A DNA stretch of 64,000 nt, from positions 124,001 to 188,000 of the forward strand of contig JAUIEJ010000001.1 in assembly GCA_030428885.1 (NCBI GenBank), read 5' to 3'. Positions 21,437 through 53,794 of this stretch are shown here, piece by piece. Within the stretch, counting starts at the first letter, position 1, and each line of letters opens with the position of its first letter. Both the position numbers and the translations under genes were made by a program. The stretch comes from Gemmatimonadota bacterium. Lineage in GTDB: Bacteria > Gemmatimonadota > Gemmatimonadetes > Longimicrobiales > Gaopeijiaceae. The notes under the pieces are model-generated. The model saw only the letters and a list, made by a program, of their open reading frames with translations, had not been told where the DNA came from and did no database searches.

Positions 21437-23662
21437 CTACCGGAACAGCACCTGGTTGGGGCGGATGCTCCCCCGGTCGATGACCAGGTGCTGGTAGCCG
21501 GTCTGGGGCCCGCCGGTGCGGACGTAGTCGTCGGGGCCGTCGGACTTCACGTCGGCCCGGTAGCGCTCGTACAGGTACTGGCTGAGCTCGATGGCCGAGA
21601 TGGCCGTGTCGCCGTCGGCATCGGCGAGACGGTCGCCCACGGCGTCGGCCATGAAGTGGGAGAGGTAGCCTCCGGCCCGGAACTTGGCCGCCACCGACGA
21701 GGTGACGTCCTCTTCCGACGAGAAGAAGCCGATGCGGCCGGGGACCGACACGACGTCCTTGGAGAAGCCGCCGCTGAAGCAGGCGTCCAGGACCAGCATG
21801 GCGATGCCCGGGTCGATCTCCGCCAGGAGCGACGAGAACTCGTCGTCGGTGATGCCGGCGTCGAAGAGCTCCAGGGTCTCGTCCATGGCGTCGGGATCGG
21901 TGATCTGGGGGCCGCCCCGCTCCACCCGGCCGCCGTGGCCCGAGTAGAAGAAGACGAAGAGGTCGTCGGGCCCGGCGCGGCTGCCCACGTCCCGGATCGC
22001 CTGCTGCACGTTGGCCAGGGTCGCCTCGCCGTCGGTGAGGATCACGGCGTCGCCGGGCCGCATGCCCGCCCCCGTCTGGAGGGCCTGGGCCACGGTGTGG
22101 GCGTCTTCGGCCGTGTAGGCCAGATCGTTGGCCCGGCCCCCGTAGTCGCTGATGCCCACGAACACGCCCATGACCCGCCCCCCCGTGCCGTCGTCCACGG
22201 TTCGCATCCCCGCCTGGGGTGACACCGCGAGCTCGTAGGCGCCGGTGTCGCCGGCCCGGTACGAGGTGGCCACCAGGCGATAGCGGCCGCTCTCGGGGAG
22301 CACCAGATCGATGCGGGACTCCTGGAGGCTGCCCTCCCAGTCGTCGTTGTCGATGACCTCGCCGCCGGGGGTCACCACCTGGACGTAGGTGTCGAAGGCC
22401 TGGGAGGTCATGCGCACCGAGACCCCGTCGCCCGCCGCGCCTTCGAAGACGTACAGGTCCCGGAACTGACCCGTGTCCCGAAGGGCGTCGTCGTCGTCCA
22501 GCGCCGAGCGCACCGACGATCCCACCGGGAGGGCGGCCACGTCCCGACGCTGTTGCTCGGCCCGGTCCGGGGCGCCCCGGTCGATGCGCAGGGAGTACGA
22601 CCCGGTTTCGCCCGGGGCGTACGACGTGACGATGACCCGGTATTCCCCCGACTCGGTGAGGGTCATCTCCACCTCGCTCTCCCCCGGGCGTCCCTCCAGG
22701 TCGTCGTTCTCCCGCCGGTCGTCGTCGGGCCCGCGGACGATGAGGTAGGGATCGAACTCCGACGACGACAGGGTGGCCACCAGCGTCTCGCCGGGGGTGC
22801 CGGCGAAGGTGTAGAGGTCGGCAAACTCGCCCGTGCGCAGCGTATCGTCGCCCGCCGCCAGCGAGCCCGCCTCGGTGCGGGGCGCCCGGGCCATGGCCGG
22901 CTCTGCCTCGGTGAGGGTGATGCGGAGGGAATAGGCCCCGGTCTCACCGGCGGAGTAGCTGGTGACCCCGACCCGGTACTCCCCCGCCTCGTCCAGCGTC
23001 TCGGAGATCACCGAACGGCGGGCGTCGCCCTCGAAGTCGTCGTTCTCGAAGACGCGGCCCGAGGGGGAGACCAGGATCAGGTAGGTGTCGAGATCACCGG
23101 AGCGGAGGTCCAGGAGGGCGTGCTGCCCCGCCTCGCCTTCGAAGGTGTAGGTGTCCCGGTACTCGCCCCCCTCCAGGCGGTCGTCGCCGCTCTCGAGTCG
23201 TCCGGCTTCGACCCGCACGCCGGGGTCGAGGGCGGCCAGGGCGCCGCCGTCCCGGGCCCGGACCTCGATGCGGTAGTCGCCCGTCTCCCCGGGCTCGAAC
23301 GAGGTGGCCCACACGACCCAGGTGCCCGGCTCGTCCACGGCGACCTCGGCGTACGAATGACGGACGTCGCCCTCGAAGTCGTCGTTTTCGGTCTGGATCC
23401 CGCCGGGGGAGCGGATCACCACGTAGGTGTCGAAGGCGTCGGAGGTGACGTCGGCCCCGAGCATCTGCCCCACCTCCACCTCCACCTCGAAGCGGTCCAC
23501 GAACTCGCCGCTTTCCAGCCGGGAGTCGCCGGGCCCCAGGGTGCCGCTCTGCTCCACCAGCACGGTGCCGGGGGCAGTCTCGGAGTCCCCCGAATCCCCG
23601 CCGCAGGCGCCGAGGGCCGCGAGGGTCAGCAGAATGGTTGCGGTGGCCGGTCGCCGGTTCAT
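21437..23662 (-). CDS. Caspase-family (C14) lipoprotein with four PPC domains
   Basis: A 741-residue exported protein. The signal ends at lipobox ALGAC (Cys20). Four PPC-like (bacterial pre-peptidase C-terminal) beta-sandwich repeats follow at about 34-136, 150-250, 264-361 and 380-481; each shows F-TY or DPYL, a GG or DN acidic loop (for example ENDDFEGD) and an ETG-Y-L end. The caspase domain is last (about 496-741) with His576 in FYSGHGG and Cys628 in LDACFSGG, plus the first strand VMGVFVGISDYG. The ATG has AGGAG five bases upstream. The protein differs from the caspase at 88-2145 by its export and its PPC repeats, so it probably acts on the cell surface or in the periplasm. Confidence 0.92.
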   Translation of the reverse strand: MNRRPATATILLTLAALGACGGDSGDSETAPGTVLVEQSGTLGPGDSRLESGEFVDRFEVEVEVGQMLGADVTSDAFDTYVVIRSPGGIQTENDDFEGDVRHSYAEVAVDEPGTWVVWATSFEPGETGDYRIEVRARDGGALAALDPGVRVEAGRLESGDDRLEGGEYRDTYTFEGEAGQHALLDLRSGDLDTYLILVSPSGRVFENDDFEGDARRSVISETLDEAGEYRVGVTSYSAGETGAYSLRITLTEAEPAMARAPRTEAGSLAAGDDTLRTGEFADLYTFAGTPGETLVATLSSSEFDPYLIVRGPDDDRRENDDLEGRPGESEVEMTLTESGEYRVIVTSYAPGETGSYSLRIDRGAPDRAEQQRRDVAALPVGSSVRSALDDDDALRDTGQFRDLYVFEGAAGDGVSVRMTSQAFDTYVQVVTPGGEVIDNDDWEGSLQESRIDLVLPESGRYRLVATSYRAGDTGAYELAVSPQAGMRTVDDGTGGRVMGVFVGISDYGGRANDLAYTAEDAHTVAQALQTGAGMRPGDAVILTDGEATLANVQQAIRDVGSRAGPDDLFVFFYSGHGGRVERGGPQITDPDAMDETLELFDAGITDDEFSSLLAEIDPGIAMLVLDACFSGGFSKDVVSVPGRIGFFSSEEDVTSSVAAKFRAGGYLSHFMADAVGDRLADADGDTAISAIELSQYLYERYRADVKSDGPDDYVRTGGPQTGYQHLVIDRGSIRPNQVLFR

Positions 23663-23743
23663 CGTTCTCCTCGCGCTCGTGGTCCTGCCAGTGTACTTCT
23701 TGGCGGCAGCCCGAGCCACGTTTCCCCTCGATCCACGCCGGTC

Positions 23744-24109
23744 ATGGCCCTGTTCTCGTTCCTCTCCAAGCTGCTCCGCGGTCCCCACGGCCTCGCCCCC
23801 GCCGAGTTCCTGACGCGGCGCGAGCCCGCGCATCCGGTCCTGGACGTGCGCACGCCGGGCGAATTCGCCCAGGGGCATGTGAAGGGCGCCATCAACGTGG
23901 ACATCCACGGTCCGGACTTCGCGGCAGCGGTGGATCGCCTGGCGAAGAAGGGGACGCTGAAGGCCGACCAGCCGGTCTACCTGTACTGCCGTTCGGGGGC
24001 GCGCTCGGGTCGGGCCGCCCGGTTCCTGCGGGAACGGGGATACGGCGAAGCGTACAACGTGGGGGGACTCGGAGGGCTGAAGGCCGCCGGGGCCGAGGTG
24101 GGGCGGTAG
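23744..24109 (+). CDS. Rhodanese-like sulphurtransferase
   Basis: A 121-residue single-domain rhodanese. The signature strand HPVLDVRTPGEFAQGHVKGA is followed by the active-site loop YCRSGARSGRAA (the Cys carries the persulphide) and the C-terminal AYNVGGLGGLK. It has a short N-terminal hydrophobic stretch FSFLSKLL that is too short for a signal. It is divergent from the caspase lipoprotein (81-base gap) and convergent with the next gene. Confidence 0.95.
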   Translation: MALFSFLSKLLRGPHGLAPAEFLTRREPAHPVLDVRTPGEFAQGHVKGAINVDIHGPDFAAAVDRLAKKGTLKADQPVYLYCRSGARSGRAARFLRERGYGEAYNVGGLGGLKAAGAEVGR

Positions 24110-24120
24110 CCCCAGGTCGC

Positions 24121-24606
24121 TCAGGCCTCGGGCGTCTCCATCCGGGCTTCGACTCCGGTGCGCTCCCGGAGCTCGTCCACGAAGAGGTTGGGCCGGCCCG
24201 GCGAGATCACCACCGTGCGGTCGCCGAACTCCAGCACCACGGAGCGCTTCGGATCCGTGACCCACGCCCGGTAGGCGCCGAGCTTGGAGTTGTGGAACCG
24301 GCCGGTGAAGCCGAAGACGCCCCCGTTCCCGAAGGTGCGCAGCGATCGTCGCATGGCGTCGGGGGCGATGGCGGCGCCGCTCAGCCCCGAGAGGGCCAGT
24401 CGATACGGAGCCCAGGCCCTGCGGTGGATGAGCAGATCCCGACCTTCGAACGAGTACCCGGCGGGGCCGTAGGCGTAGAGCACCAGCATGAGGGCCCAGG
24501 CCGCCGCGCCGCCCCACGGCGTCAGGAACACCATGCCGGCGAAGAGCACGAAGATTCCACCGGTGATCCACTTCACGCTCGCCGACCAGGGCGCTCGATA
24601 CCGCAT
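24121..24606 (-). CDS. Small membrane protein with PH-like domain
   Basis: A 161-residue protein. The start is fixed by GGAGG five bases upstream of the ATG. Two hydrophobic helices near the N-terminus (about 11-30 and 34-49) are followed by a cytoplasmic beta-rich domain whose end reads YRAWVTDPKRSVVLEF and VVISPGRP-NLFVDELR. This is the pattern of bacterial PH (pleckstrin homology) domains next to two membrane helices. Function unknown. Confidence 0.75.
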   Translation of the reverse strand: MRYRAPWSASVKWITGGIFVLFAGMVFLTPWGGAAAWALMLVLYAYGPAGYSFEGRDLLIHRRAWAPYRLALSGLSGAAIAPDAMRRSLRTFGNGGVFGFTGRFHNSKLGAYRAWVTDPKRSVVLEFGDRTVVISPGRPNLFVDELRERTGVEARMETPEA

Positions 24607-24779
24607 TTCGACCTCCGCGCTCGTTCGTTGCCCTCTCCCACCGGTGTCCCGGGTCCGGTGGGCCTCATTCCATCATACGGCCGCCGAGCCGGCTTTCGTC
24701 ATGGGGCCCGGCGTCGGTGGCCGCGCCCGCTGGGCGACTCCATCTTCCAACGATCCTCCGACCCCCGCCCGCCCCGCCC

Positions 24780-26922: not shown

Positions 26923-29589
26923 TCACGCGTCGCGAATCGTGAGGGCCGGATCCACCCGGGCGACCCGGAGCGCGGGGACCAGCGCCGACGCCACCAGGGC
27001 GACGGCCAGGGCCCCCGCCAGGGCGGCCAGAACCGAGGGGGGCACCGGGTCGATGGCCACCACGAACCCGTTGAGCACCGTGCCCAGCCACTGGGACGCC
27101 AGGAGCCCCAGGGCCACCCCCACGGCGAGGAGCCTCGCCCCCTGGAGCACCACCATGGCCACCACCCGGGGGCGGGACGCGCCCAGGGCGAGGCGGGTGC
27201 CGATTTCCCGGGTCTGGAGGCTCACCCGGTAGGCCACCAGGCCGTAGACCCCCACGCAGGCCAGGAGCAGTCCCACGGCGGCGAAGGCGGTGGCCAGAGC
27301 CGCGCTCGTGCGCTCTTCGCCGAGCACGTCGGAGCGGAGCTGCTCCAGCGTCGCGTCGCCGAAGGTGGCCAGGGTGGGGTCGATGGTCGCCACCGCCCGC
27401 CGCATGGCGCCCAGGGGATCGCCGCTCCGGGGGGCGGCCACCAGATGGACGATCTCGGCCGAGGAGCCCGTGGGCTCCTGCTCCAGGGGGAGGTACCACG
27501 ATTCCGTGTAGGCGCCTTCGCGGTGCAGGGTGGGGATCACGCCCACCACCTCCCGGAAGGGGCGCCCCTCCCGGTCCACGCCGATCCGTTTCCCGATGGG
27601 GTCTTCGCCGGGCCACAGACGCTGGGCCAGGGCCTGGTCCACGATGACCACGAGGGGTGAGCCCGGCCGGTCCTGGGGTCCGAACGCGCGACCCCGCACC
27701 ACGGACACGCCCACCGTCTCGAAGAACCCCGGGGTGACGTAGGTGTGGTGAATGAGCTGGGGCGGGGCGTCGGCCGGGCGCTCCTGGCCCTCGGCCCGGA
27801 CCGGCGCGGCCCAGTCGCCGCAACAGAGGGGGTTCACCGAGATGATGCCCACCGACGCCACCTCGGGCAGCCGGCCGATCTCGGTCTCCAGGGCCTGGTA
27901 CAACGCCCCCCGGGCATCGGGGGTGGACCAGCGTTCCGTGTCCACGGCGACCTGGAGCGTGGCGATCCCCTCGGTCTCGAACCCCAGATCGGCGCGGCGC
28001 ATTCCCTCGAAGTGACGGAAGAGGGCCGCCGAGCCGGCCAGGAGCGTCAGGGCCAGGGCGACCTCCGAGACCACCATGGCGCCCTGGAGGCGACCGCCGT
28101 GGGCGCCACCTCGAGCGCCCCGGCGCAGAGCTCCACCCAGGTCGCCCCGGGACGCCCGCCACGCCGCGCCGCCACCGGTGACGAGGCCGGCCGCCACCGC
28201 GAACCCGAGAGCGCCGAACACCACCACCGGCTCGAAGCGCATGCGGGGCACGTCGAGCTGGGTGCGGAAGACGTCGGGAATGAGGGCGCCGGCCGCTCCG
28301 GCCAGCAGCGCTGCCAACCCCAGTCCCGCCACGGCGCCGCCCACGAAGAGCACGAGGGATTCGGTGGCGGCCAGGCGTGCGATGCGCAGGCGGGAGGCCC
28401 CCAGGATGCCTCGGAGGGTGGTCTCGGACGATCGCGCCGACATGCGGAGGCCCAGGAGGTTGCCGACGTTGACGCAGGCCAGGACCAGGAGGAACACCAC
28501 CGCCGCCGACAGGGCGCGCAGGGGGTCGGCGTGGTCCCGGATGAAGTCGGCCCGGATCGAGGCCACGTGGACCCCGTCGTCGGGGGTCGTGCCCGGCGCC
28601 TCGGCCTGGAGCGCCCCGTACACCCGGGCCACGTCGGCCCGGGCCGCCTCGGCGTCGATCCCCGGGGCCAGGCGCGCCACCACGTTGAGGTTGTGGGGCT
28701 GCCACGCCGCCGGGTCGAACCGCCCCGGGAGCCAGACGTCGGCGTCGTAGGGGTAGCCGAAGCCCGCGGGGAGGACGCCCACGACCCGCAGGGGGCCGTC
28801 GGCCGTGCGCAGGGTGCCGCCCACGGCCTCGGGGGCGCCGCCGAGGTGGCGCGTCCACACGGCGTACGACACCAGGGCGACCCGGGCGTCGGGGCCGGCG
28901 GCCTCCTCGTCGGGGGTGAACCCCCGGCCCAGGGCGGGGCGAACGCCCACCAGGTCGGCCCACCCGTCGGACACCGAGATGCTGGACACCCGGGTCGCCC
29001 CGTCGTCGCCCAGGATCGCCAGGGACCCGCCCCCCATGGCGGCTACTCCGGTGAAGGCCCGGGCCGACTCCCGGAGGGCGAGGAAGTCGCGCGGGCTCAT
29101 GTTGTAGACCCGCTCGCCACCGTCGGCGTCGACGAACGAACGCAGCCGGACCAGGGCGTCGGCGTCGTCGAAGGGAAGGGCGCCCCGATACACGGTGTTG
29201 AGCACACCGAGGATCGAGGTCGTGCCCCCCAGGCCGATGGCCAGGGTCAGGAGGACCGAGAGGGTGAACGCCGGGGTGCGGGCCAGTCCCCGGACGGCGA
29301 CCCGGATGTCCGACCCCAGGTCGGCCGCCAGTTCCCGGAGCGTGGGCCCGAAGGCCCGCCCGCCCGGTGCGTCGATGCCCACCACCAGGGCCACCGGGGT
29401 CTCGTCGCGGGTGAAGACCACCCGCAGCTCCACCTCGCCGATCCGGACCCGGGCCGCCCGGGCGTCGAAGGGGTCGGGGCCGGGGTCGCCCTCGCCGCGC
29501 TGCAGTCCATCGAGTGCCCGGGACACCCGCCGCCGAGCCACGGGACCCAGCGAGCGCAGCGTACCTTCGGCGTCGCGGGAGAGGCGCAC
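26923..29589 (-). CDS. ADOP-type MacB/FtsX permease with RelE-like N-terminus
   Basis: An 888-residue protein. From about residue 85 it is a standard ADOP permease: amphipathic helix, first membrane helix, MacB-like periplasmic core, three-helix FtsX block, a second periplasmic core and a final FtsX block (ADOP permeases are orphan ABC permeases). The first 75 residues do not match the usual helical ADOP N-terminus. They read MRLSRDAEGTLRSLGP, then VSRALDGL, RVRIGEVELRVVF, and VALVVGID, the RelE/ParE toxin pattern. A Phd-type antitoxin lies 23 bases upstream. The start is uncertain: the GTG at 29589 sits in a frame that remains open upstream (WEVRLS precedes it; a CTG at 29616 overlaps the antitoxin TGA), and an internal GTG could start the permease alone. 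The long open frame makes a true fusion likely. Confidence 0.85.
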   Translation of the reverse strand: MRLSRDAEGTLRSLGPVARRRVSRALDGLQRGEGDPGPDPFDARAARVRIGEVELRVVFTRDETPVALVVGIDAPGGRAFGPTLRELAADLGSDIRVAVRGLARTPAFTLSVLLTLAIGLGGTTSILGVLNTVYRGALPFDDADALVRLRSFVDADGGERVYNMSPRDFLALRESARAFTGVAAMGGGSLAILGDDGATRVSSISVSDGWADLVGVRPALGRGFTPDEEAAGPDARVALVSYAVWTRHLGGAPEAVGGTLRTADGPLRVVGVLPAGFGYPYDADVWLPGRFDPAAWQPHNLNVVARLAPGIDAEAARADVARVYGALQAEAPGTTPDDGVHVASIRADFIRDHADPLRALSAAVVFLLVLACVNVGNLLGLRMSARSSETTLRGILGASRLRIARLAATESLVLFVGGAVAGLGLAALLAGAAGALIPDVFRTQLDVPRMRFEPVVVFGALGFAVAAGLVTGGGAAWRASRGDLGGALRRGARGGAHGGRLQGAMVVSEVALALTLLAGSAALFRHFEGMRRADLGFETEGIATLQVAVDTERWSTPDARGALYQALETEIGRLPEVASVGIISVNPLCCGDWAAPVRAEGQERPADAPPQLIHHTYVTPGFFETVGVSVVRGRAFGPQDRPGSPLVVIVDQALAQRLWPGEDPIGKRIGVDREGRPFREVVGVIPTLHREGAYTESWYLPLEQEPTGSSAEIVHLVAAPRSGDPLGAMRRAVATIDPTLATFGDATLEQLRSDVLGEERTSAALATAFAAVGLLLACVGVYGLVAYRVSLQTREIGTRLALGASRPRVVAMVVLQGARLLAVGVALGLLASQWLGTVLNGFVVAIDPVPPSVLAALAGALAVALVASALVPALRVARVDPALTIRDA

Positions 29590-29612
29590 CTCCCACCGCG
29601 CGCCCGGTGCGT

Positions 29613-29867
29613 TCAGAGCCCCAACTCGCGCTTGAGGGCGTGCCAGGCCGCGGCTTCGTCGGTATCCAGTTCGTCCAGCGCCCGGCTGACTTCCTGGCGG
29701 CTCAGGAACCCCCGGAGGCGGTCCGCCAGCGTGGCGTCGGAGGCCGGTACGATGGCCGCCAACTCCTGGCCCCGCCGCGTCACCAGGACCGATTCCCCGC
29801 CGTAGGCCGCCCGGTTGATGAGCTCGGCCAGGCGCTTCCGCGCCTCTACGGTCGTCACGTCGTCCAC
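29613..29867 (-). CDS. Phd/YefM-family antitoxin
   Basis: An 84-residue antitoxin. MDDVTTVEARKRLAELINRA and VLVTRRGQELAAIVP are the Phd/YefM signature (dimer strand and helices), and the C-terminal helix (VSRALDELDTDEAAAWHALK) is the toxin-binding part. GTG start at 29867 with a purine-rich stretch (GGGGGA) upstream. Its normal partner is a RelE- or Doc-type toxin; the only candidate is the RelE-like N-terminus of the permease 23 bases downstream. Confidence 0.88.
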   Translation of the reverse strand: MDDVTTVEARKRLAELINRAAYGGESVLVTRRGQELAAIVPASDATLADRLRGFLSRQEVSRALDELDTDEAAAWHALKRELGL

Positions 29868-29931
29868 GCTCCGTCCCCCGTTACGAGATGTACAGTTCGT
29901 ACGTTGGGTACGCCGGAGGGGGGGCGAGGTT

Positions 29932-30363
29932 TCAATCCGTGGGCGGCGCCTCCCGAAACGGATTCACGATCCGCAGGCCGAAGACCGTCTGGTCGTGTTG
30001 GAGATCCTCGGTGAGGAGGGTCTCGCAGCCGGCCGCGAGGGCCTGGGCGACGATGAGGGAATCCCACCAGGAAAAGCCGAATCGATCTTCCACCGCCCAA
30101 GCGTGCTCGAGTACGGCGAGATCGGTGACCACCGGTGCCCAGGTCGCCAGGGCCGCGACGTCGTCACGAACCTCCTCGGCGTCTGCCGGCGGGGCCAGCT
30201 TCCGTACGAGCGTGACGTAGAACTCCTGCAGGACCTGGACGCTCAGGCGGCCCGATCCGCGGTCCCATAGAACCGCCAGCCACTCCACGGCACGTCTCTG
30301 CTTCTCGGGATCCGACGGATCCCGGGCGTAGACCAGCACGTTGGTGTCAACGAAGACCGGCAC
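29932..30363 (-). CDS. PIN-domain toxin (VapC-like)
   Basis: A 143-residue PIN ribonuclease toxin with a full acidic set: Asp6 in FVDTNVLVYA, Glu47 in VLQEFYVTL, Asp101 in WWDSLIVAQA and Asp120 in LLTEDLQH. It starts at a GTG inside the end of the antitoxin gene (17-base overlap), so translation should be coupled. It is a third type II pair in the window and is unlike the two at 15.6-17.0 kb in sequence. Confidence 0.93.
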   Translation of the reverse strand: MPVFVDTNVLVYARDPSDPEKQRRAVEWLAVLWDRGSGRLSVQVLQEFYVTLVRKLAPPADAEEVRDDVAALATWAPVVTDLAVLEHAWAVEDRFGFSWWDSLIVAQALAAGCETLLTEDLQHDQTVFGLRIVNPFREAPPTD

Positions 30364-30601
30364 GATCGTGCAACTCCGCTCTGGACGGGAGTCGCCGCTC
30401 GGGCACCACGGCCACGTAGGGCGCCTTCGCCAGGAATCGGCGGCGCGCCGCTTCGTACGCCTCGCCGGACTCCATCTTCTCGCGGAGAAGGGCGCCGACG
30501 AAGCGCGAGACGCTGGTGTCCCGGCGTGCCGCCTCGATCCGGGCCCAGCGCGCCGTGTCTTCGTCGAGGGTGATGGTGACGTTTCGTCTGGAGCGGCTCA
30601 T
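30347..30601 (-). CDS. CopG/ribbon-helix-helix antitoxin
   Basis: An 84-residue antitoxin: RRNVTITLDEDTARWARIEAA is the ribbon and first helix, TSVSRFVGALLREK the second helix, then a tail with AKAPYVAVVPERRLPSRAELH for toxin binding. The ATG lies two bases from a pair of palindromes on the promoter side, the usual place for an autorepressor. Confidence 0.9.
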   Translation of the reverse strand: MSRSRRNVTITLDEDTARWARIEAARRDTSVSRFVGALLREKMESGEAYEAARRRFLAKAPYVAVVPERRLPSRAELHDRAGLR

Positions 30602-30602
30602 A

Positions 30603-30635
30603 CACGAAGTTCGTGCTGCACGAGATTCGTGTCAA
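30603..30635 (-). promoter_or_regulatory. Tandem palindromic operator and promoter of the toxin-antitoxin pair
   Basis: Two 13-base palindromes, CACGAAGTTCGTG (30603-30615, perfect arms of six) and CACGAGATTCGTG (30619-30631, one mismatch), are set 16 bases apart. A consensus TTGACA lies on the minus strand at 30635-30630. With a 17-base spacer the -10 would be GAACTT inside the first palindrome, a weak match. The site fits a ribbon-helix-helix antitoxin dimer pair. The TTGACA overlaps the stop region of the upstream kinase gene. Confidence 0.7.
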
Positions 30636-33178
30636 TTCGCCGGTCCCTCTCCCGCCTCCATCGGACCTTCGTCCAGCAGCGCCCGGGTGCGCTCGGTTCG
30701 GGGATCGTCGGGGCCGAACCGGGACTCGAGGATCTCCAGCGCCTCTTCCAGCAGGCCCCGGGCCCCGCCCCCATCGCCCGCGGCTCGCGCCGTGCCGGCC
30801 AGTCCCACCAGGCTCTGGGCCACGTCGGGGTGATCCGGGCCGAGCCGACGCCGACGGAGAGCCAGGGCTTGGCGGTGCAGGGAATCGCTGCGTTGGAGCT
30901 GGCCCCGGGCCCGGGCGACCTCGGCCAGACCGTTGAGACTGAAGGCCACGTGGGGATGCTCGGGCCCCAGGACCTCCCGCCGGATGTCCAGGGAGCGACG
31001 GTACAATCCCTCGGCCTCGTCCCACGACGCCCGCTCTCTCAACACGTCGCCCAGGTTGCTCATGACGCTGGCCGTCCGGGGATGCCGCTCCCCGAACCCG
31101 TCCGACGCCAGCTCCAGGCTTCGGCGCAGCAGTTCCTCGGCCTCGCCGTACTCGCCCCGATCCCGGAGGGAGAGGGCCAGGTTGGCCATGGCCAGCGCCA
31201 CCTGGGGGTTGGAGGGGCCCAGAAGCCGCTGGCGCAGCGCCAGGGACTCCCGCAGGAGCGGCTCCGCCTCGTCGTTTCTGCCCTGGGCCTGCAGCACCAG
31301 GGCGAGGTTGTTGAGGGTCACCACCAGCGCCGGATGGGTCGCGCCGTAGAGGGTGCGACGCATGGCGAGGGACTCCCGGTAGAGGGCCGCGGCGTCGTCG
31401 TAGCGGCCCTGGAGCTGGTGGAGCAGGGCCACGTTGTGCACCGACTCCGCCACATCCCGGTGGGGCGGCTCGAAGAGGCGACGCCGCATGTCCAGGGCAT
31501 CCACGAGAAGGGGCTCGGCCCCCTCGAAGTCCTGGCGTGCGAAGAGCAACAACTGGCCGAGGTCGTTGAGGCTCTCGGCGATGGCTTCGTGGGGACCCCG
31601 GAACCGGGCTCGCCGGACGCGCAGCGCCTCTTCGAAGAGGGTCTGGGCCTCGTCGAACTGGCCCCGGGCGTCCAGGACTCCGCCCAACGCGTTGAGGCTG
31701 CGGGCCACGTCGGCGTGGTCGGGACCGAGCACGTCGCGGCGGATCGCCAGGGACCGGCGCAGGGGCGGCTCGGCCTGGTCCGGGAGTCCCAGACTGCGGT
31801 AGAGGCCGCCCACCACCTCCATGAGGGCCGCCTGCACTTCGGGTTGCCCCGACAGCTCCGCCTCGATCCGCGCTTCGCTCCGGTCCAGCAGGGCCCGGGC
31901 CGTGAGGGTGTCGCCCAGCGCTTCGGCCGGATCCGACCCCTGGAGGAGGTCCACCAGGAGCGCCGTCACCTGCTGGGCCTTGTCCCGCTCGCCGGCGATC
32001 CGGACGGACTGGATCGCGAACACCGTGAGGCCGGCCAGGAGTCCCACCACCGCCAGCGTCGACGCCGCCACCCCCCACCGGTGGCGCCCCACGAACTTCC
32101 GCAGACGGTAGGGCAGCGAATCGGCCTGGGCCGTGATGGGGAGCCCCCTGCGGTAGCGGTCCACCTCGTCGGCCAGCCGGTCGGCGGACTCGTAGCGGCG
32201 CTCGGGCTCGGGCCGGAGGGCCGTGGCGACGATGAGGTCCAGGTCCCCCCGCAACCGGGTGGCGGGCACCGGAGCCTCGGCGCCCCGCCGTGCCGCCGTG
32301 GCGCTGGGTCGGGCTCCGCCCTCGGCCCGCTCGCCCGTGAGAAGGGTGAACAGCAGGAGTCCCAGGCCGTAGACGTCCGACGCGGTGGTGAGGGGCGCAC
32401 CCCGGATCTGCTCGGGACTGGCGAAGGCCGGGGTGAGATAGCGGGCGTCGGCCCGGGTGGCGTCCTGGGACCCCTCGTCCGAGTCCAGCAGCTTGGCGAC
32501 CCCGAAGTCCAGCAGCTTGGGCTCGCCGTCCGGCGTGATGAGGATGTTGGACGGCTTCAGGTCGCGGTGCAGGACCAGGTTCTGGTGGGCGTAGTTCACC
32601 GCGCGGCAGATGGAGCGGAAGAGCGTCAGACGCTCGTCGAGTCCCGGCGAGGTGTGGGCCAGGTGCTCCGTGAGCGGCACCCCGTCGATGTACTCCATGA
32701 CGAAATACGGGCGGCCGTCGGAGGTGACGCCCCCGTCCAGGAGACGGGCGATGTGGGGGTGGTCGAGACGGGCCAGGACCTGCCGCTCCAGGAGGAAGCG
32801 ACCCAGGACTTCGTCGGTGTCCATGCCCCGGCGAATCACCTTGATGGCCACCCGCTGCTCGAAGCCGCCCTCGTCTCGTTCGCCCTCGTAGACGATGCCC
32901 ATGCCCCCGCGGCCGATCTCCCGGGTGATGCGGAACGGGCCGATCCGTTCGGGAAGGCCCACCCGCCCCCGGGCCACGAGGCGGGCGCCCAGATCCAGGA
33001 GCGGTTCCTCGAGAAAGGACCCGGTGCGGTCGTGGTGACGGAGCAGGCCCTGGAGTTCGTCCCGGAGGGGCGACCCGGGGGGGCAGCGTTCGTCGACGAA
33101 GGCGGCCCGGGACTCGGGCGGGAGTTCCAGCGCCTCTCCGAAGAGGGCCTTGAGAGCGCTCCAGTCCGCCGAGGCCAT
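30632..33178 (-). CDS. Ser/Thr protein kinase with membrane helix and TPRs
   Basis: An 848-residue Hanks-type kinase. The ATG at 33178 is preferred over the GTG at 33217 because MASADWSALKALFGEAL is the usual start of this family. A leading helical domain (about 1-75), kinase domain (about 80-345) with GRGGMGIVY, Lys113 in VAIKVI, HRDLKPSN (Asp206) and DFG (Asp224), then one membrane helix near 360-385, and about ten kinesin-light-chain TPRs to the C-terminus. The TPRs are outside if topology is normal. It lies directly after the ECF sigma gene. Sigma-plus-kinase pairs of this kind are frequent in Acidobacteriota and Gemmatimonadota and the kinase probably governs the sigma factor or vice versa. 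Confidence 0.93.
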   Translation of the reverse strand: MASADWSALKALFGEALELPPESRAAFVDERCPPGSPLRDELQGLLRHHDRTGSFLEEPLLDLGARLVARGRVGLPERIGPFRITREIGRGGMGIVYEGERDEGGFEQRVAIKVIRRGMDTDEVLGRFLLERQVLARLDHPHIARLLDGGVTSDGRPYFVMEYIDGVPLTEHLAHTSPGLDERLTLFRSICRAVNYAHQNLVLHRDLKPSNILITPDGEPKLLDFGVAKLLDSDEGSQDATRADARYLTPAFASPEQIRGAPLTTASDVYGLGLLLFTLLTGERAEGGARPSATAARRGAEAPVPATRLRGDLDLIVATALRPEPERRYESADRLADEVDRYRRGLPITAQADSLPYRLRKFVGRHRWGVAASTLAVVGLLAGLTVFAIQSVRIAGERDKAQQVTALLVDLLQGSDPAEALGDTLTARALLDRSEARIEAELSGQPEVQAALMEVVGGLYRSLGLPDQAEPPLRRSLAIRRDVLGPDHADVARSLNALGGVLDARGQFDEAQTLFEEALRVRRARFRGPHEAIAESLNDLGQLLLFARQDFEGAEPLLVDALDMRRRLFEPPHRDVAESVHNVALLHQLQGRYDDAAALYRESLAMRRTLYGATHPALVVTLNNLALVLQAQGRNDEAEPLLRESLALRQRLLGPSNPQVALAMANLALSLRDRGEYGEAEELLRRSLELASDGFGERHPRTASVMSNLGDVLRERASWDEAEGLYRRSLDIRREVLGPEHPHVAFSLNGLAEVARARGQLQRSDSLHRQALALRRRRLGPDHPDVAQSLVGLAGTARAAGDGGGARGLLEEALEILESRFGPDDPRTERTRALLDEGPMEAGEGPAN

Positions 33179-33194
33179 GGGCTCGGGACCCGGG

Positions 33195-33770
33195 TCAGCC
33201 GGTCCGGGTGAGCTCACGATGGAGCCACGCCTTGGCCATGGCCCACTCCCGCTTGACCGTGGCGGGAGAGATGTCCAGCACCTCGGCCGTCTCTTCGATG
33301 GTGAGGCCGCCGAAGAAGCGGTAGGTGACGATCTCGCCCTGGCGGGGATCCACCTTCGTCAGGGCCGACAGGGCATCGTCCAGTCCCACGAGGGTCTGGG
33401 GGTGTCCGTCGCCCAGGGGCTCGGATTCGAGCTGCTCGATGGAGACGTGGTCTGCGCCCGCGCCCCGCTTCTGGGCCAGGCGTTCCCGGGCGTGATCGAT
33501 GACGATGCGGCGGATCGAACGAGACGCGATGGCGAAGAAGTGGGCCCGGTTCTTCCAGGTCACCCGCGTCTGGTCCACCAGTTTGAGGTACGCCTCGTGG
33601 ACCAGAGCCGTGGTGTTCAGCGTGAACTCGGCCGGCTCGGACCGCCGTTGCCCGTGGGCGATGGCCCGGAGCTCGTCGTACACCAGCGGCAACAGGCGGT
33701 CGAGGGCCTGTTGGTTGCCGCCGCTCGCTTCCTGGAGGAGCTGCGTCACTTCCGTGGGGGGAGCCGCCAT
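33195..33770 (-). CDS. ECF-type sigma factor (TIGR02999-like)
   Basis: A 191-residue sigma factor of the type described as 'sigma-70 family, ECF, TIGR02999'. Region 2 reads LLPLVYDELRAIAHGQRRS, FTLNTTALVHEAYLKL, and WKNRAHFFAIASRSIRRIVIDHAR; region 4 has GLTIEETAEVLDISPATVKREWAMAKAWL (helix-turn-helix). No anti-sigma gene is next to it; control by the following Ser/Thr kinase is likely. It starts 39 bases after the giant VWA gene. Confidence 0.95.
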   Translation of the reverse strand: MAAPPTEVTQLLQEASGGNQQALDRLLPLVYDELRAIAHGQRRSEPAEFTLNTTALVHEAYLKLVDQTRVTWKNRAHFFAIASRSIRRIVIDHARERLAQKRGAGADHVSIEQLESEPLGDGHPQTLVGLDDALSALTKVDPRQGEIVTYRFFGGLTIEETAEVLDISPATVKREWAMAKAWLHRELTRTG

Positions 33771-33809
33771 GGGCCCAACATAGGGGCGGGCCGCCTCCCG
33801 GGACCACGG

Positions 33810-36800
33810 TCAGCCGCCGTACCGGGTGAGGTAGGCCTCGTACAGTCCCTCGGCCTCGCCGCAGTCCCCCCGTTGGGCCGCCGCCAGGATGCTGAACGCC
33901 AGCGCTCTCTGGTCGGTGTCCCGGACCCGGCTCGATTCCGCACGGGCCCAGGCGTAGAGCTGGGGACACCGGCCCGGCTCGAAGATGGCGTTGGGCCGCT
34001 CCCGCTGGAGTTCTTCCAGCGACCGGATCCGGTCTTCCACCGAGGCCCGATCGGGGGCGCCGGGGAGGAGGTCGAGGTAGCGGCGCGCCGCCTCGATGGC
34101 GCCCAGCGTGCGGCCCTCGGCCTCGTAGGCCAGGGAGAGGTTGAACTGGGCGGTGGCGGCGTCGGGGTGCTCCCGGGCGGCCTGCTCGAAGGTCAGGCGG
34201 GCCGACTCGAAGTCGTCCTGCTGGAGGTAGGCCAGGGCGGTGCGGTACAGGTCGGCCAGACGCACCCGGCTCGCCCCGTCGACGTAGGGATCCTGGGTGC
34301 GGACCTGGCCCGCCAGCGAGGCCCGCCGGAACGCCCGGTACAGCTCCTCGGCGGAGTTGGCGGAGTACTGCTTTCCCGTGCCCGCCGATCGCACCAGATC
34401 GCCCAGTTGGGTCTCGGCCGCGCCGCCGGACTCGAGTCCCAGCCCCACGCCGTCGAGCTGGATGGGGATGGGGCTCGAGCGAATGCGGGAGCCGGCGTCC
34501 CGCACGGCCCCGTCCCCCCCGCAACTGTTCTGGCCGTCGCTGAGGAGGAGGATCTGCCCGGCCCGGCCCCGGGCGTTCTGCTCCAGATGGGCCTGGGCCG
34601 CCCCCACCGCCGGAGCCATGGGGGTGCCCCCGCCGGGCCGCACGCCGGCGATGGCCTGCTCCATGACGCCCCGGTCCACGGTGAAGTCCTGCACCACCCG
34701 CCACCCGCTCCCGCAGCCGCCGCTGTAGGTCATGAGGGCGACCTCGACGTTGGGCCCCAGGGACCGCACGGTGTGCTGAGCGGCGGAGCGGGCCGCCTCG
34801 ATCTTTCCGTCGTTGCCCATGCTCCCGGAGGCGTCGATGAGGAGGACGACGGAGCGATCCACCGGCACCGTGGGGGCGGTGCCCGGGCCCACCTGCAGGG
34901 TCTGGATGAAGCCCTGGATCCAGCCCCGGTCGCAGTCCGGGGCGGTGGACAGGGCCTCTTCGGCCAGGCGCCCGGCGGCGTCCAGGTCGCCCGACGCCCG
35001 GGCCGCGCCGGCCCGGTCCATGAGGGCTTCGGCCCGCTCCTGGCCCCGGGCCTCCACCCGGAACTCCAGCAGATCGGTCTGGACCCACTCCAGGGTGGGG
35101 TCCATGGCGGCCACCTGATCGCCGAGCTCCACGGCGGCCACGAAGTCGCACTGGTTGGCGGCCTCCACCGCCTGCCGCATGAGACGGGCGGCCTCGTCGG
35201 CCAGACCCTCCATGGCCGCCTCGATCCCGGCGAGTTCGCAGCCCGGGAGATCGGCCAGGGCCGCGGCGTCCCGGAGGGTGGCCAACGCCGCGTCCGTGCG
35301 TCCCGCCCCGGCCTCGAGGCGGGCCGTGGCCTGGAGTTCCTCCGCCGTGCGCTCCGCCGCGGCGGCCCGGTCCAGCGCTGCCTTCTCGGCCTGGAATTCG
35401 CCCCGGAGCGCCCCCACCTCGGGGGGAACACCGTTGGGGAACGCCGACGCCAACCACCGTTCCACCAGCTCGACGATGCGGGTCTGGGCGTTGGCAGCGG
35501 CGGCCCAGTCGCAGCGCGCCCGGGCGTCGTCTCGCTCGCCTTCCAGGGTCGACGTCAGGGGCTCCAGGTCCCGCACCACCTCGTCCAGGGGGGTGCCGCC
35601 GGGGTTCTCGCCGCCCGGCGGCCCGCCGCCCCCACCCGTGGAGTCGGCGGGCGGCGGATCGACGGTCGTCGGCCCGGGGGCGCTGTCGGCCGGGGTGGCC
35701 ACCACGGGCCGCAGCACGAGCTCTCCCAGGTCGAGGGCCGCTCCGGTGCCGTCGACGGTAGCCTGGGCCGTGGCGCGGTACCGCACGCCGTCGGCTTCGG
35801 CGAGGGCCGTGACCTCCAGGCCGGCGCCCACCAGGACGGGGTCGGGGGACGCCAGGGAGAACCGGTCGCCCACCGAGTGGGCCCATTCGCCGGCGAACAG
35901 GGTCGAGGTGATGACCGCGTCCACGGGAGCGGCGCGCCCGTCGGGAACGTCGGCCACGGCCAGGGAGCCCAGGGCGGAGAAGCGCCCCGCGCCGTAGAGG
36001 GGAAGGGTGATCTCCACCGGGTCGGGCAGCACCGGACTCTCCCACACCGGGATGTCGTTCAACACCACCCGGCCGGTTCGTTCGATGGAGGCGCCGCCCA
36101 CCGTCATGGCCGCGGTGACCACGAGTTCGTCGGTGGTCTTCTCGAACACGCCGCGGCCGCGGAAGGCCGGGCCGTCGGGGGCCGCCGCCTCGTCGTTCAC
36201 GGTGACGTCCACGTCGGGGGCGGAAAGAGGCCCGCCCGTGACGTCGGCCACGGCGATGGCGAACCCGTCGAGACGAACGTCCCACCGCTCCACGGCGAAG
36301 GGCCCCACGCTCAACTCGTGGCCCGGCGCGAGATCCAGTTCCAGAGGCCGAGCCACGGGGCGGATCAGGTAGTCCTGGGCCTCCCGGAGCGTGACGGCCA
36401 GGCGCGGGGAATCTTCGAGCCGGAGCACCCGGGCGTTGACCAGGGAAAATGTGCCGTCGCCGGCGACGACCCCCGTTCCGAAGTCGTCGCCCTGAAGGGA
36501 CCCGCCCACGATCTCGAGAGAGGCCCCGCTCGCCGGCTCGAACGACCCCACCACCGTGAGGTGGGCGGCCTCGAAGAAGGGCAGCTCCAGACGGACGAAG
36601 GGTTGGTCCCGGGACATCCACGTGGCCTGGGTCGAGGCCCGGGCGGGCGGGTTCGGCGGCGCCCGCTGGGCTTCGACCGTGAAGGGCTCGCCCTCGCGAA
36701 GAGTGAGGAGGAGCGCCTGGGGATCGGCCGGTGAGGACCGGGCGGCGTCGGCCGGGCCCGTGACCGTGATGTCGGCGTCGGGAATGGAGTATCCGGCGGC

Positions 36801-39800
36801 GTCGGTCACCTCGACGGTGATGAGGGTTCGCGCGCCCTGGTTCAGGACCAGCATCTGTTCGGGGGTGATGGAGCCGGGCTGGGCGCGGGTCAGGACCGCG
36901 GGCCCCCGAGGGGTGGCGGCCAACCCCACGTCGGCGGCCGCCGAGCCCAGGCTGAGCCAGGCCCGGGGCTCCCGACCCGGCGCTCCGGATCCGGTCAGTC
37001 GGTAGCGCTCCAGCCAGTCCTCCGAGACGGCCGAGACCTCCAGGTCGAAGGCCCCGGGGGCCACGGCGCCCATGGGCTGGCCGTCCAGGACCACCCACGG
37101 ACGTTCGGTGCCCGGGTCGCCGCCCACGATCTCCACGGTTCCGGTGAAGCGGGCCGGGGCGACCTCGATGGACACGGTATCGCTACCGAGCCCGATGTCG
37201 CCCGGACCCAGGGGGACCACTTCCAGAACATGGGGGCCGGCCCGGAGGGGGTGGGCCTCCCAGTCGGCGTCCACCGTGATCTCGCTGGCTTCGGTGCCCC
37301 CGGCACCGGTGAGGAACCACCGGTATCCGCGCACCAGGGTGCGGGCGTCGAGGGTCGGGGGTCCGGCGGGAAGATCGGTGCGGGTCTGGACCGCGGCGGC
37401 CCCGTCGACGGTGCCCAGGAGCACCGCATCGGCCGCACCCGTGGTCACGTCGACGGTGACGAGCTCGAACAGACCGCCCAGGAGTTCGGCGTACTCGTTC
37501 TCGAAGTCCTGGACGTGCTGGGCAACGGTGGCGGCCCGCGCCCCATCGCCCAGATCCCCGGGGAGAAACGCCCGGCCCTTCTTCTGCATGGAGCCCAGGG
37601 CCTTCGTGAGCTCCGCCGCCGACGCCCCGTCGATCCGGGACCGGATCCGCTCCAGCTTGTGGATCTGTTTGCGCAGGCGGAGCAGGTAGGGGAAGTACGG
37701 GTGGGAGAGGGCGAGGGAGAGCCAGTCACCCTGGCCCGTGGCCCGGTAGATCACGTCGTGGGCCCCGGCGAAGAGGTCGTCCACCACCTCCGACCCGCTG
37801 CCCAGCTCCCGGGCCAGGGAGAGGCCCCGTGCGTCGTAGAAGCCCTGCATCCGGGCCCCCACGTCCCGGGCCACCCGGGCCTCCTCGTCGCGATACGCCC
37901 CGGCCCACTCCGCCACCCGGGCCGAGTCGGGGCTCACGTTGCCCGACAACCAGGAGTCGTTGGTTTCGGCGGTGATCCCCACGTGGTATTCCCGGATCTC
38001 CGGACCGTCCTGGGCCACCCACCCCCGGTTGGCCTCCAGGAGCTTCCGGATCGCGTCGTAGCGAGCCTCGAAGAGGAACAACACGTCGGCGATGGACTGG
38101 AGCAGTTCGGTGGAGCGCCGCTGCGCCTCCACCGGATCCACCACGGTGCTGTCGGCCACCTCCCGGGCCAGCTCGGCGAGAAGGCGCCGACCTTCGGCAG
38201 TGGACGCCCGGAAGGCGTCGCGAATGGGCACGTCGGCGTCGGGGTCGTAGCCCGTGCCGGGAAACGGGTCGGCGGACCGGGCGATGAGGGGCCAGGTGGC
38301 CTTGTCGATGGCGGCGGCCCGGGCGTCGAGACGGTCCAGTTCCTCCTGGAACTCCAGCGGCTCCACGAGGGCGGCCAGCTCCTTCTGCTTGCGCCGGGCG
38401 GCCTCTTCGATGAGGGGCGGCAGCACCCGGTCTTCCAGCAATACCTGCCGGCGGCCCCAGACGTCGGCCACGAGTCGGCCGAACATCTTCCGCGAGGCCG
38501 CCTGACGGTGGGCCTCCCAGTCCCGGTTGCTGCCTCCCCACTCCCCCGGGTCGTCCCGGAGCAGGTACACGGGCACCGTGGCTCCGAAGTCCAGCCGGGT
38601 GTCGTCGTCGATGCTGGGGGCGATGCCCCAATCGTCGCGGATCCACTCGGTGGTCATCTCCCGGCTGCCCGGGACCGGGTTCAGAAAGCTCCCCACGTTG
38701 GCCGCCACGGCCGCCTGCCGCGCGGCGGTGAGGTTGAGGGCCATGAGCTGGTCGGTCTCGATCTGGTTGCCCACGTAGGCCAGGTCGAGCAGCGCCTCCC
38801 GGGGCTGGATGACCCGTCGACTCGTGCGCAGCATGACCCCCTGGTCGAAGGGTGCGGGCTGGCGGCGGGCGACTTCCCGCACGTCGGACACGAGGTCCTG
38901 GGCCCCCGAGCCGTCCCACCGGATCCACCCCTGCAGTTCCGGAGGCTTCACCCCGGTGGAGTCCACGGCCCAGACGCCGTTTTCCACCAGGAGGTCCACG
39001 ACGTCGCTCCGGGCCGAGGAGAGGGTCCACGACGAGTAGATGCCCGTGGCCACGTCCTTGAGGAAGAGCACCGTGGCCACCTGGGGCACGTAGGCCGTGA
39101 GGAGGTCGGTGGTGAGGGCCAGGGTGAGCTGCCGAGCGGTGCCCTCGTCCATGAAGGCCCCGCCGCTGAGCTTCGCGGCGGTACCGAGGGTTCCGCCGAT
39201 GGCGCCCACCACCCCCGGGGTCTTGTACCCGAAGTGCTCCACCACGTCGACGAGTCCCACGGCACTGGCCACGACCTGGGCGTGGGCCCGGGCCATCTGT
39301 TCGGGCGAGCTCGTTCCCGAGTCCCAGTAGATGGCCTTCAGGTTGGCGTACAACTGGTACCCGTCGTTGAACTGGCCGTAGACCTTCTTGATGAACTGGC
39401 CGCCCTGGACCGCCGCCTTGAAGCTGGCCAGCCCGAGGCTCATGCCCTGCTCGACCCGGGTGGGCTCGATGACCTGGGTGCGGGTGGCGCCCGTTTCGTC
39501 GGTCCAGCGCACGGTGACGGGGCGGAGGCCGGCCGGGTCGGTGAACCGGTGCAGCCGCATGACGAGCTCGACGGCCACGTGGGGTTCGCCCTCGAAGTAC
39601 TCCTTGACCCGACGCGCCAGCGTTTCGTCCTGCCAGCCGAAGGTGCGGCCCAGGTCCTCGATGATCCTCACCTCGTCCAGGACGTCGGCCGGGGCGAGCA
39701 CCCGCTCCACGAAGGTGGTGCCGTCCCACATCAGTCCCACCTGGCCCCGGGTGAACTCGCCGGTGGCGACCCGGAGCAGGAGGGCGTCCAGATTGGCGGC

Positions 39801-41429: not shown

Positions 41430-42802
41430 CCGCCCAACCTCCGCCGGATCTCGGTGAACTCCCGGCTGTCGATCTGCATCTCCCGGTCCAGGGGGAAGTC
41501 CTCCAGGTACCGGGTCGTGCGCTCGATCCGCTCCGACGTCGGGGGGTGGGTGGCGGTGAGCCGGAAGGGCGTGCTGGGATCGATCTGGTAGAGGCGCACG
41601 AAGAGGCTCGTCATGAACGTCGGGTTGTAGCCGGCGTTGAACGCGATGTGGGTGGCGTAACGGTCGGCCTCCGACTCGTACTGCCGGCTGTAGCCCTTCA
41701 GCAGGAGGTTCACCCCCACGTCGACGCCGATGTCGATGAGCTGGCGGTACAACTCGTTCTCCACCTTCACCAGGGAGAGGAGCGCCGATGCCGTCATGCG
41801 GGTGCGGATCTCCGACACGGTCAGCCGGGCGGCGTGATGGGCGTAGACGTGGCCGAGTTCGTGGGCCAGCACCGCCACCAGCTCGGCCTCGCTCTCGGCG
41901 AAACGCACCAGGCCCGTGTTCACCAGGATGGTGCCCGGGAGGGCGGCCGCGTTGGGCTCGGGCGAGTCGATGACCTCCACCACGTTGTGGATCGGGGGGC
42001 CCAGGGAGTTGGCCTGGAGCTTGTCCACGAGCCGCTGCAGGTAGGCCTTCAGTTCGGGATCGGCCGCCGGGGCGCCCGCCGGCCCGAGTTGGGCCAGACC
42101 CTGGCGGGCGAGGGACATCTCGAACTGGGGCGTCACCTGGACGACGGTCTCGACCTGGAACGTCTGGGGGTTGAAGGTGGTGACCCGGGCTTCCGGCCGG
42201 TCGTAGTAGTCGGCGTACTGGTACCAACCGTCGAGAAAGGCCTCCTCGAAGGGGCGCACCAGCTCCGCCATCTCGCGGTGGAGCTCGGCGTCGGTGGAGA
42301 CGGCCTCCACGTAGGTGGCGTAGTAGCGCGCGTTGCGGCCGTCGCCCTGCTGGGCGTACGCGTTGGCCAGGTACCGGGCCGCGTCCACGGCGTAGGGATC
42401 GGCCTCCAGGATCCGGGTGAGGAACTCGATGGCGTGGGGGTATCCCCGGCCGTCCACGTAGTAGGACTGGTAGAAGAAGACGATGCCCAGTCCCACGGCG
42501 GCGTCCCGGCTATGGGGGTTTGCCGCCAGCGCTTCCTCCAGGATCTCCTGCGCCCGCTCGAGGCTGCCTCGCGTACGGCGTTCGTCTCCCGCCGACACGG
42601 CGTCGAATCCGTCGGCCACCCAGTCCCAGGCGACATCCACGTGCTCCGAGACGTCGGGGAGTCGCTGGCCCTCGGCCGAGGGACCCCGGTAGTCGGGGAA
42701 TCCCCCCTGCATGGCCTGGGCGGGGGCGACGCCGAGGCCACACGCCAGGCCGAGGAGGACGAGGCTCCGGGAGCCGGGGAGCCGGAGGGAGGGGAACGGC
42801 AT
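41426..42802 (-). CDS. M48-family metalloprotease with N-terminal TPRs
   Basis: A 458-residue exported protease with signal peptide (core LVLLGLACGLGVA, cleavage near AQA). Residues about 60-190 are TPR-like (AQEILEEALAANPHSRDAA, IEFLTRILEADPYAVDAARYLANAYAQQG). The M48 zinc site is complete: HELGH (His314, Glu315, His318) and the third ligand Glu378 in ESEADRYA. It resembles the BepA/YfgC type of periplasmic proteases that handle outer-membrane proteins, although here the TPRs precede the catalytic domain. It starts four bases after the SH3/barrel gene and its TGA overlaps the giant gene start. Confidence 0.93.
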   Translation of the reverse strand: MPFPSLRLPGSRSLVLLGLACGLGVAPAQAMQGGFPDYRGPSAEGQRLPDVSEHVDVAWDWVADGFDAVSAGDERRTRGSLERAQEILEEALAANPHSRDAAVGLGIVFFYQSYYVDGRGYPHAIEFLTRILEADPYAVDAARYLANAYAQQGDGRNARYYATYVEAVSTDAELHREMAELVRPFEEAFLDGWYQYADYYDRPEARVTTFNPQTFQVETVVQVTPQFEMSLARQGLAQLGPAGAPAADPELKAYLQRLVDKLQANSLGPPIHNVVEVIDSPEPNAAALPGTILVNTGLVRFAESEAELVAVLAHELGHVYAHHAARLTVSEIRTRMTASALLSLVKVENELYRQLIDIGVDVGVNLLLKGYSRQYESEADRYATHIAFNAGYNPTFMTSLFVRLYQIDPSTPFRLTATHPPTSERIERTTRYLEDFPLDREMQIDSREFTEIRRRLGG

Positions 42803-49074: not shown

Positions 49075-49427
49075 CCCCCCAGCGCCTCCGCCGCATCCGT
49101 GAGTCCCAGCAGGCGCGACACCACGCCCGCGTGTGATTTCCAGCGGGCGATCTCGCCCCGCAGTTCCGCCCGCCCGGCTTCGGTGAGGGAGTAGATGCGG
49201 GCCGGTCGGCCCGACGGGGCCTCGTCCCACACGTCGTCCACGAAGCCCGCGTTGCGCAGGCGATGGAGGGCCGGGTACAGAGCCCCCTCCTTGATGTCCA
49301 GGGCGTCGCCGGAGCGGCGCTCGATCCATTCCGCCACGCCGAGGCCGTGGAGAGGCCCGTCGGCCAGGGCCTGGAGGATCAGGAGGTTCAGGGTTCCGTA
49401 GATCGATCCGGAAGGAACGCGGGTCAT
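49071..49427 (-). CDS. PadR-family transcriptional regulator
   Basis: A 118-residue PadR-s1 type repressor with the winged helix at the N-terminus: GTLNLLILQALADGPLHGLG, LDIKEGALYPALHRLRNAG, RIYSLTEAGRAELR. Its start is followed on the promoter side by a perfect palindrome at 49481-49510, and its stop overlaps the start of the ADOP permease, so it probably controls that gene and itself. Such pairs are common in Acidobacteriota and Gemmatimonadota. Confidence 0.95.
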   Translation of the reverse strand: MTRVPSGSIYGTLNLLILQALADGPLHGLGVAEWIERRSGDALDIKEGALYPALHRLRNAGFVDDVWDEAPSGRPARIYSLTEAGRAELRGEIARWKSHAGVVSRLLGLTDAAEALGG

Positions 49428-49480
49428 GGCTCGTCCAGGGGCCGAGGGACAGAAGGTCCGAACCTCGGCAGGTTAGTACA

Positions 49481-49510
49481 CTAAGCTGTCTAGGGCCATA
49501 GACAGCTTAG
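49481..49510. promoter_or_regulatory. Perfect inverted repeat upstream of padR (probable operator)
   Basis: CTAAGCTGTCTA and TAGACAGCTTAG form perfect 12-base arms around six bases (49493-49498). It is 54 bases before the PadR start on the minus-strand promoter side. AT content is much higher than the surroundings. It fits a PadR dimer site, though the motif differs from the canonical ATGT-N8-ACAT of PadR. Confidence 0.75.
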
Positions 49511-49553
49511 GTCTCCGAAGGGTTGCATCGGGAATCCCGCGGGCCGCCTCCTC

Positions 49554-50006: not shown

Positions 50007-50124
50007 GGGCGCGAAGCTAGGGGCCGCCCGGCGCTCGGGGCAATCGCCGCCCCCCTCGTGATCCCGGAGCGGCGGAACCGCCGCGTCTTGAAGCAGAACG
50101 TGTCCCGGAACCCTGGAGGATGTC

Positions 50125-50727: not shown

Positions 50728-50730
50728 GGC

Positions 50731-53448: not shown

Positions 53449-53449
53449 G

Positions 53450-53791: not shown

Positions 53792-53794
53792 GGC

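Follow-up and report, generated by a model that had tools for sequence, protein, structure and literature searches.

The closest published plan to the locus described here is that of the ToxR-ToxM systems (Gerdes 2025, PMC11980606), which were called the first possible membrane-associated type II complex (PMC11980606). In both, a cytosolic N-terminal domain of RelE/ParE fold is combined with a membrane part and a periplasmic domain, and a small gene for a DNA-binding antitoxin lies upstream. However, ToxR is an RHH or HTH protein, whereas the antitoxin here is Phd; ToxM consists of a TM region, a disordered stretch and one C-terminal domain, whereas here we find a duplicated 8-TM permease of the MacB/FtsX type; and the active site is eroded in the fusion heads of the present system. 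The main text of PMC11980606 mentions neither permeases nor Gemmatimonadota. Standalone type II modules of the Phd/YefM-RelE kind (among loci L093-L161 of our analysis) share with this locus the gene order, the Phd subfamily, a 9-bp GTAC register and the RelE fold, but their toxin is a free protein of ~90 aa with an intact R..R..Y..R..Y set. Pairs of PadR and ADOP (TIGR03434) resemble it in that an orphan duplicated permease follows immediately after a repressor gene; their repressor, however, is PadR and the permease N-terminus is a helical prefix or absent, in place of the Phd and the RelE fold seen here. A search of the open-licence literature revealed no report of RelE-ADOP fusions; the phrase 'duplicated orphan permease' occurs there in a species description.

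Layout of the fusion gene and its surroundings

The window, i.e. the whole stretch of 64,000 nucleotides that was analysed, carries a minus-strand ORF that runs without interruption from 29880 to its stop codon (26923-26925) and contains a RelE-like domain and an ADOP permease in one frame. A phd gene (29867-29613) directly precedes it on the same strand. The features of the locus, in the order of transcription, are as follows.

29889-29911, minus strand: putative Phd operator with three GTAC cores in a 9-bp register (sequence; comparison across loci)
29613-29867, minus strand: phd antitoxin gene, 84 aa, GTG start (PF02604, 3.1e-9; TIGR01552, 1.1e-10; alignment)
29614-29616, minus strand: probable fusion start, a CTG that shares bases with the phd stop (CTGA), where G003, G344 and G022 have GTGA (comparison)
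29359-29595, minus strand: RelE-like domain, 79 aa, beta-alpha-alpha-beta-beta-beta, active-site Tyr and Arg lost (hhalign, AF2, Foldseek, residue table)
29308-29358, minus strand: linker leading into an amphipathic coupling helix, partly of low confidence (AF2 model; residues 81-87 with pLDDT < 50)
26926-29307, minus strand: ADOP with 8 predicted TM helices, two MacB-type periplasmic and two FtsX domains (TIGR03434, PF12704 twice, PF02687 twice, AF2, Foldseek)

The in-frame join of a RelE-like domain to a permease had been proposed in an initial annotation of this DNA and holds: no stop lies between the two parts, and the fusion recurs in relatives. The same annotation had named the upstream gene as Phd, which the PF02604 (3e-9) and TIGR01552 (1e-10) matches confirmed, and had placed its stop 23 bases before GTG 29589, where we find it as well. 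The ADOP part begins at about residue 101; it matches TIGR03434 with 647.2 bits (curated cut-off 622.3) and contains two copies each of MacB_PCD (PF12704) and FtsX (PF02687). The usual helical ADOP N-terminus is indeed absent from the window gene, as had been remarked, but this alone is uninformative since ADOPs without the prefix are not rare (e.g. L195). No ABC ATPase stands beside the fusion; the flanking genes scanned were those for Uma2, SelO, Phd, PIN, RHH-like, kinase-TPR, ECF sigma and caspase-like proteins. A search of Rfam revealed no match.

Directly upstream of phd lies a VapBC-like pair (29932-30601, minus strand), composed of a PIN-domain gene (PF01850, 1.4e-14) after a small RHH-like gene (DUF6364, below cut-off), so that two toxin-antitoxin modules stand in tandem. 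Next to it, a Ser/Thr kinase-TPR gene adjoins an ECF sigma factor (PF07638, 2.5e-52) at 30632-33809 (minus strand). The kinase-TPR gene and the adjacent ORF are also found upstream of the fusion in locus L045 (37% and 44% identity); this arrangement is not general. Elsewhere on the minus strand of the window, an open frame of 1075 aa (21440-24664) encodes caspase (Peptidase_C14) and PPC domains, and another of 2898 aa (33813-42506) shows recognisable domains, VWA and TPR, solely towards its C-terminus. Two further ADOP-like permeases lie on this strand at 46441-53796, with PadR matches close to where they begin.

Identity, distribution and history of the fused head

Single-sequence searches with the RelE-like part of the window revealed no match in Pfam, NCBIfam or the PDB sequences. 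Because its first 80 residues match neither a family model nor a PDB sequence, the RelE assignment could not be confirmed from the window alone; made from a single sequence it was a guess, and it became firm once relatives were added. A genome of the same genus (G003) encodes Phd, a RelE-like domain and ADOP with 44% identity over 295 aa, the whole length of the N-terminal query, and a third copy of the fusion was found in another genus (G344); the permeases of both are cut at contig ends. With a profile of toxin and TM1, ADOP candidates overwhelmed the result (11 scored per genome), but a toxin-only profile worked. Built from the three fused domains only and searched over 121 genomes of the family, it added six matches in long frames (928-1011 aa) and ten in standalone ORFs (87-151 aa); the standalone ORFs whose sequences were inspected are textbook RelE (YRVRVGxYRVVY...GHRxxVYR). 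Alignment of the fused-domain profile with the standalone RelE profile by hhalign gave 98.3% (E 1.9e-14). Searched with the standalone relatives, the PDB returned E. coli RelE, archaeal RelE and Rv2866, and Pfam returned PF05016.

AlphaFold predicted a beta-alpha-alpha-beta-beta-beta-alpha order for the window domain alone (pLDDT 69). In the full-length AF2 model (pLDDT 80.6), the RelE-like domain reaches ~75-85 outside one loop and is predicted to form a module of its own at the N-terminus, ahead of the coupling helix and TM1. A Foldseek search with the window domain returned RelE, ParE and HigB toxins as top matches (best: 4fxe RelBE, prob 1.00, E 6e-3, TM 0.54-0.61), and the permease part matched YbbP and MacB. 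The structure prediction that had been suggested for the head thus returned a RelE topology with RelE-fold toxins as its nearest structures; at moderate model confidence, the domain is predicted to have the RelE (BECR) fold of the RelE/ParE superfamily.

The class-wide search revealed one more copy, cut by a contig end (G319 = L061/L086), and its remaining matches were short ORFs or weak partial matches. A scan with a Phd profile covered 84,980 species genomes, of which the best 80 loci were considered. The best eleven Phds belong to the fusion system (fusions, including a new one in L083, remnants and a solitary Phd) and come from Gemmatimonadota, Longimicrobiales MAGs. The other Phds of the scan come from many phyla, and where a RelE adjoins them, it is a free protein of ~90 aa; no fusions in Acidobacteria were present among these best 80 loci. 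The search for other RelE-ADOP fusions, proposed as a check of the initial annotation, therefore yielded ten further heads, nine of them seen running into an ADOP. Together with the window this gives 11 RelE-like heads in at least seven genera of one family, ten seen in frame with ADOP and one cut by a contig end.

The fusion permeases fall into two ADOP clades, and a single clade was rejected (AU p = 0.0005); we distinguish type 1 (window, G003, G344 and L083) from type 2 (the six loci L040-L045). The Phds of all fusions form one clade with a support of 99/97 (tree on 84 columns). A single fusion event inherited with its permease is rejected by the permease tree, although the Phds are one clade. 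Since the Phds form one clade and yet the permeases two lineages, a Phd-RelE head may have been taken up once and then moved between permeases, or related modules may have been captured twice.

Four columns, R53, R60, Y63 and R80, do not vary among 24 standalone relatives. At most two of these arginines survive in the window head, from which Y63, R80 and the C-terminal Tyr are gone, and in most other fusions the loss goes further. In the profile columns of an alignment to 47 standalone relatives, with gaps counted as not kept, the 11 fused heads retain R61 twice, R81 three times and Y64 and Y85 in no case. E. coli RelE needs R61, R81 and Y87 for cleavage (PMC2807027), and in the alignment the fused heads lack this set of RNase residues. 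The fusions retain the N-terminal half (beta1, alpha1, alpha2), and in 11/11 fused heads the first strand has a W where standalone proteins have a Y. Between type-2 fusions, dS is near 1 and dN/dS is 0.22-0.35 for the permease; the linker between head and permease is unconstrained. For the fused head, dN/dS between type-2 fusions (0.34-0.65) and a high GC3 show that it is translated and subject to moderate purifying selection. Its residue losses point to a disarmed head, which would presumably not be toxic.

Phd, its putative operator and the translation starts

The fusion is directly preceded by a phd gene in every locus, the window included, except that of G281; in G024 the phd gene is shortened. 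The window Phd has an intact N-terminal DNA-binding domain and the C-terminal W..L(K/R)..L motif. Upstream of its gene, GTAC cores are found at 29911-29908, 29902-29899 and 29893-29890, the last of them inside a TGTACA (29894-29889) which lies 22-27 bp upstream of the phd start and is the only one within 14 kb around the locus. The GTACN5GTAC 9-bp register is also present in G003, L082 and L083 and recurs in 40 out of 69 phd loci of the standalone kind, compared with 0.2 expected from mononucleotide shuffling. Of 13 fusion-type loci, 12 contain TGTACA, where 0.38 would be expected. The same hexamer forms the core of the YefM operator, in which the spacing is 12 bp (PMC7730913). At the sequence level, the window phd thus has a putative autoregulatory operator.

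In the window genome, which has 107 PadR matches in 5.4 Mb, PadR is located upstream on the same strand of 41 of the 48 ADOP matches; the fusion ADOP has no PadR upstream and has Phd instead. Six other ADOP matches of this genome (G000) also lack an upstream PadR (C8:456937, C10:300579, C22:20696, C18:243021, C2:434562 and C16:15501).

The exceptional loci differ in what they have kept. In G281 the fusion (C2, L041) has no adjacent phd and keeps the upstream TGTACA, and the only Phd of fusion type in this genome stands alone (C328, L087), behind TGTACA, TTTTGTACAAAA. This is a split toxin-antitoxin pair, in an arrangement as expected of regulation in trans. In G024, phd lacks its first residues and the operator is lost, and the fusion is still open. 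Some fusion loci decay, as is seen from the degenerate copies L082 and L089, in which phd and operator are kept and the permease is broken. L042 and L089, related loci in two MAGs, show opposite damage: the former has lost the operator and the phd start and kept the fusion, the latter has kept operator and phd, but its RelE-permease breaks off a few codons from the start. Across nine loci, the identities of RelE and of Phd show only a moderate correlation (r = 0.64), which shared ancestry alone could give.

In G003, G344 and G022 the fusion begins at a GTG that overlaps the phd stop (GTGA), 7-9 codons ahead of the invariant W. The window reads CTGA at this position, with CTG 29616 placed 7 codons ahead of the W; a start at GTG 29589 would remove the beginning of the first strand. 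Both codons had been listed as candidates, and because relatives have GTGA at the same place, CTG 29616 is the likelier start on this comparison. None of the type-1 fusions (window, G003, G344, L083) has a Shine-Dalgarno sequence with a start codon at the usual ADOP start. All six type-2 loci have there, inside the fused frame, a perfect Shine-Dalgarno sequence and an ATG or GTG, 17-18 codons before the P-G/A-F of TM1. Since this internal start is retained in 6/6, type 2 may yield a long and a short permease as dual products of one gene, and type 1 the long one only.

Explanations for the fusion

On balance we lean towards a disarmed type II toxin-antitoxin module that was reused as a membrane-linked regulator, with Phd as the repressor and the RelE-like domain as a docking head on the permease. 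The fusion, its homology and conservation, the operator-like sites, the loss of the active site and the exchange of the regulator are read from sequence; from there we infer binding of Phd to the fused head, repression of the operon and feedback by the permease. Phd would repress its own operon by binding to the GTAC/TGTACA operator, taking the place of PadR, the repressor that accompanies most ADOPs in this genome. The RelE-like domain would have ceased to act as an RNase and would bind the antitoxin, as a head on the cytosolic side of an orphan 8-TM permease, and the level of free Phd, or the fit of Phd-RelE on the operator, would vary with how much permease is present and probably with its conformation. 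The state of the permease would in this way feed back on repression, by analogy with the toxin-dependent operator control of ordinary modules, but anchored in the membrane. The kept C-terminal motif of Phd, the constraint on the domain, the swap from PadR to Phd and the split pair of G281 argue for this regulator; the moderate identity correlation, G024 with its damaged phd and the degenerate L082 and L089 argue against it. The initial annotation had described a toxin-antitoxin module captured by a transporter gene, which is well supported by the RelE homology, the adjacent Phd, the kept operator and the occurrence in at least seven genera. It had left two readings, of which a degenerate module kept as regulator is favoured and a membrane-bound toxin disfavoured, the active-site residues being lost.

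An active membrane-bound toxin of the ToxR-ToxM kind would act with its head on ribosomes or another target and be released from Phd on membrane disturbance, e.g. upon entry of a phage or plasmid. The outline shared with ToxM (cytosolic N-terminal RelE fold, membrane part, periplasmic part, upstream DNA-binding antitoxin; PMC11980606) and the adjacency of Phd in all loci but one are consistent with it, and ParE-type members without the RelE catalytic residues yet inhibit gyrase (PMC11980606). We nevertheless think it decidedly unlikely: the fused heads have lost the catalytic residues while standalone relatives of the same Phd subfamily retain them, fusions persist without a neighbouring phd (G281, with its solitary Phd) and with a shortened one (G024), and no PADLOC match was found that would speak for a defence role. 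Passive capture, which we rather doubt, would mean that an ADOP landed behind phd-relE, the relE stop was lost and the operator was merely used, leaving the RelE part as a tolerated tail or a chaperone of Phd that transmits no permease signal. The faster evolution of the toxin domain (dN/dS 0.34-0.65 versus 0.22-0.35 for the permease), the permease's own Shine-Dalgarno sequence and start in 6/6 type-2 loci and the existence of degenerate copies would fit such a history. Against it stand a frame that has stayed open in all ten fusions seen, across two permease lineages, dN/dS values clearly below 1 at dS near 1, and the W at the domain start in all 11 heads, where standalone proteins have Y; moreover, the head is always made in the window type, because there is no internal start.

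That a sequencing error joins two ORFs, or that the permease is made from its own start, had been named as what would overturn the fusion. The assemblies are MAG-derived and type-2 relatives do have a good internal permease start, but the same fusion is found in many independent assemblies, with no stop between the RelE-like part and the permease in any of them, and the window type lacks a Shine-Dalgarno start at the usual ADOP site. A sequencing error or hidden stop is therefore rejected, as is an internal permease start for the window type, the latter being a real possibility for the sister type 2; as an explanation of the window locus, artefact or separate genes are extremely improbable.

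Going beyond the membrane-linked regulator, we tentatively entertain a new kind of membrane signal transducer, in which an exapted antitoxin repressor has as its receptor a dead toxin head on an orphan MacB-type permease, and a signal from the envelope or a substrate would pass directly from the permease to the promoter of its own operon. Such a head would be mobile between permease lineages, and PadR-ADOP pairs may share the plan. If true, this would be a clear case of a toxin-antitoxin pair that was disarmed and reused as a regulator, operator included, in at least seven genera, and it would bear on the long debate over the purpose of chromosomal toxin-antitoxin modules. It would also offer a handle on the ADOPs, which are abundant in these genomes (48 matches in the window genome); and if the head is a docking site for the repressor, PadR-ADOP pairs would become testable as permease-controlled switches.
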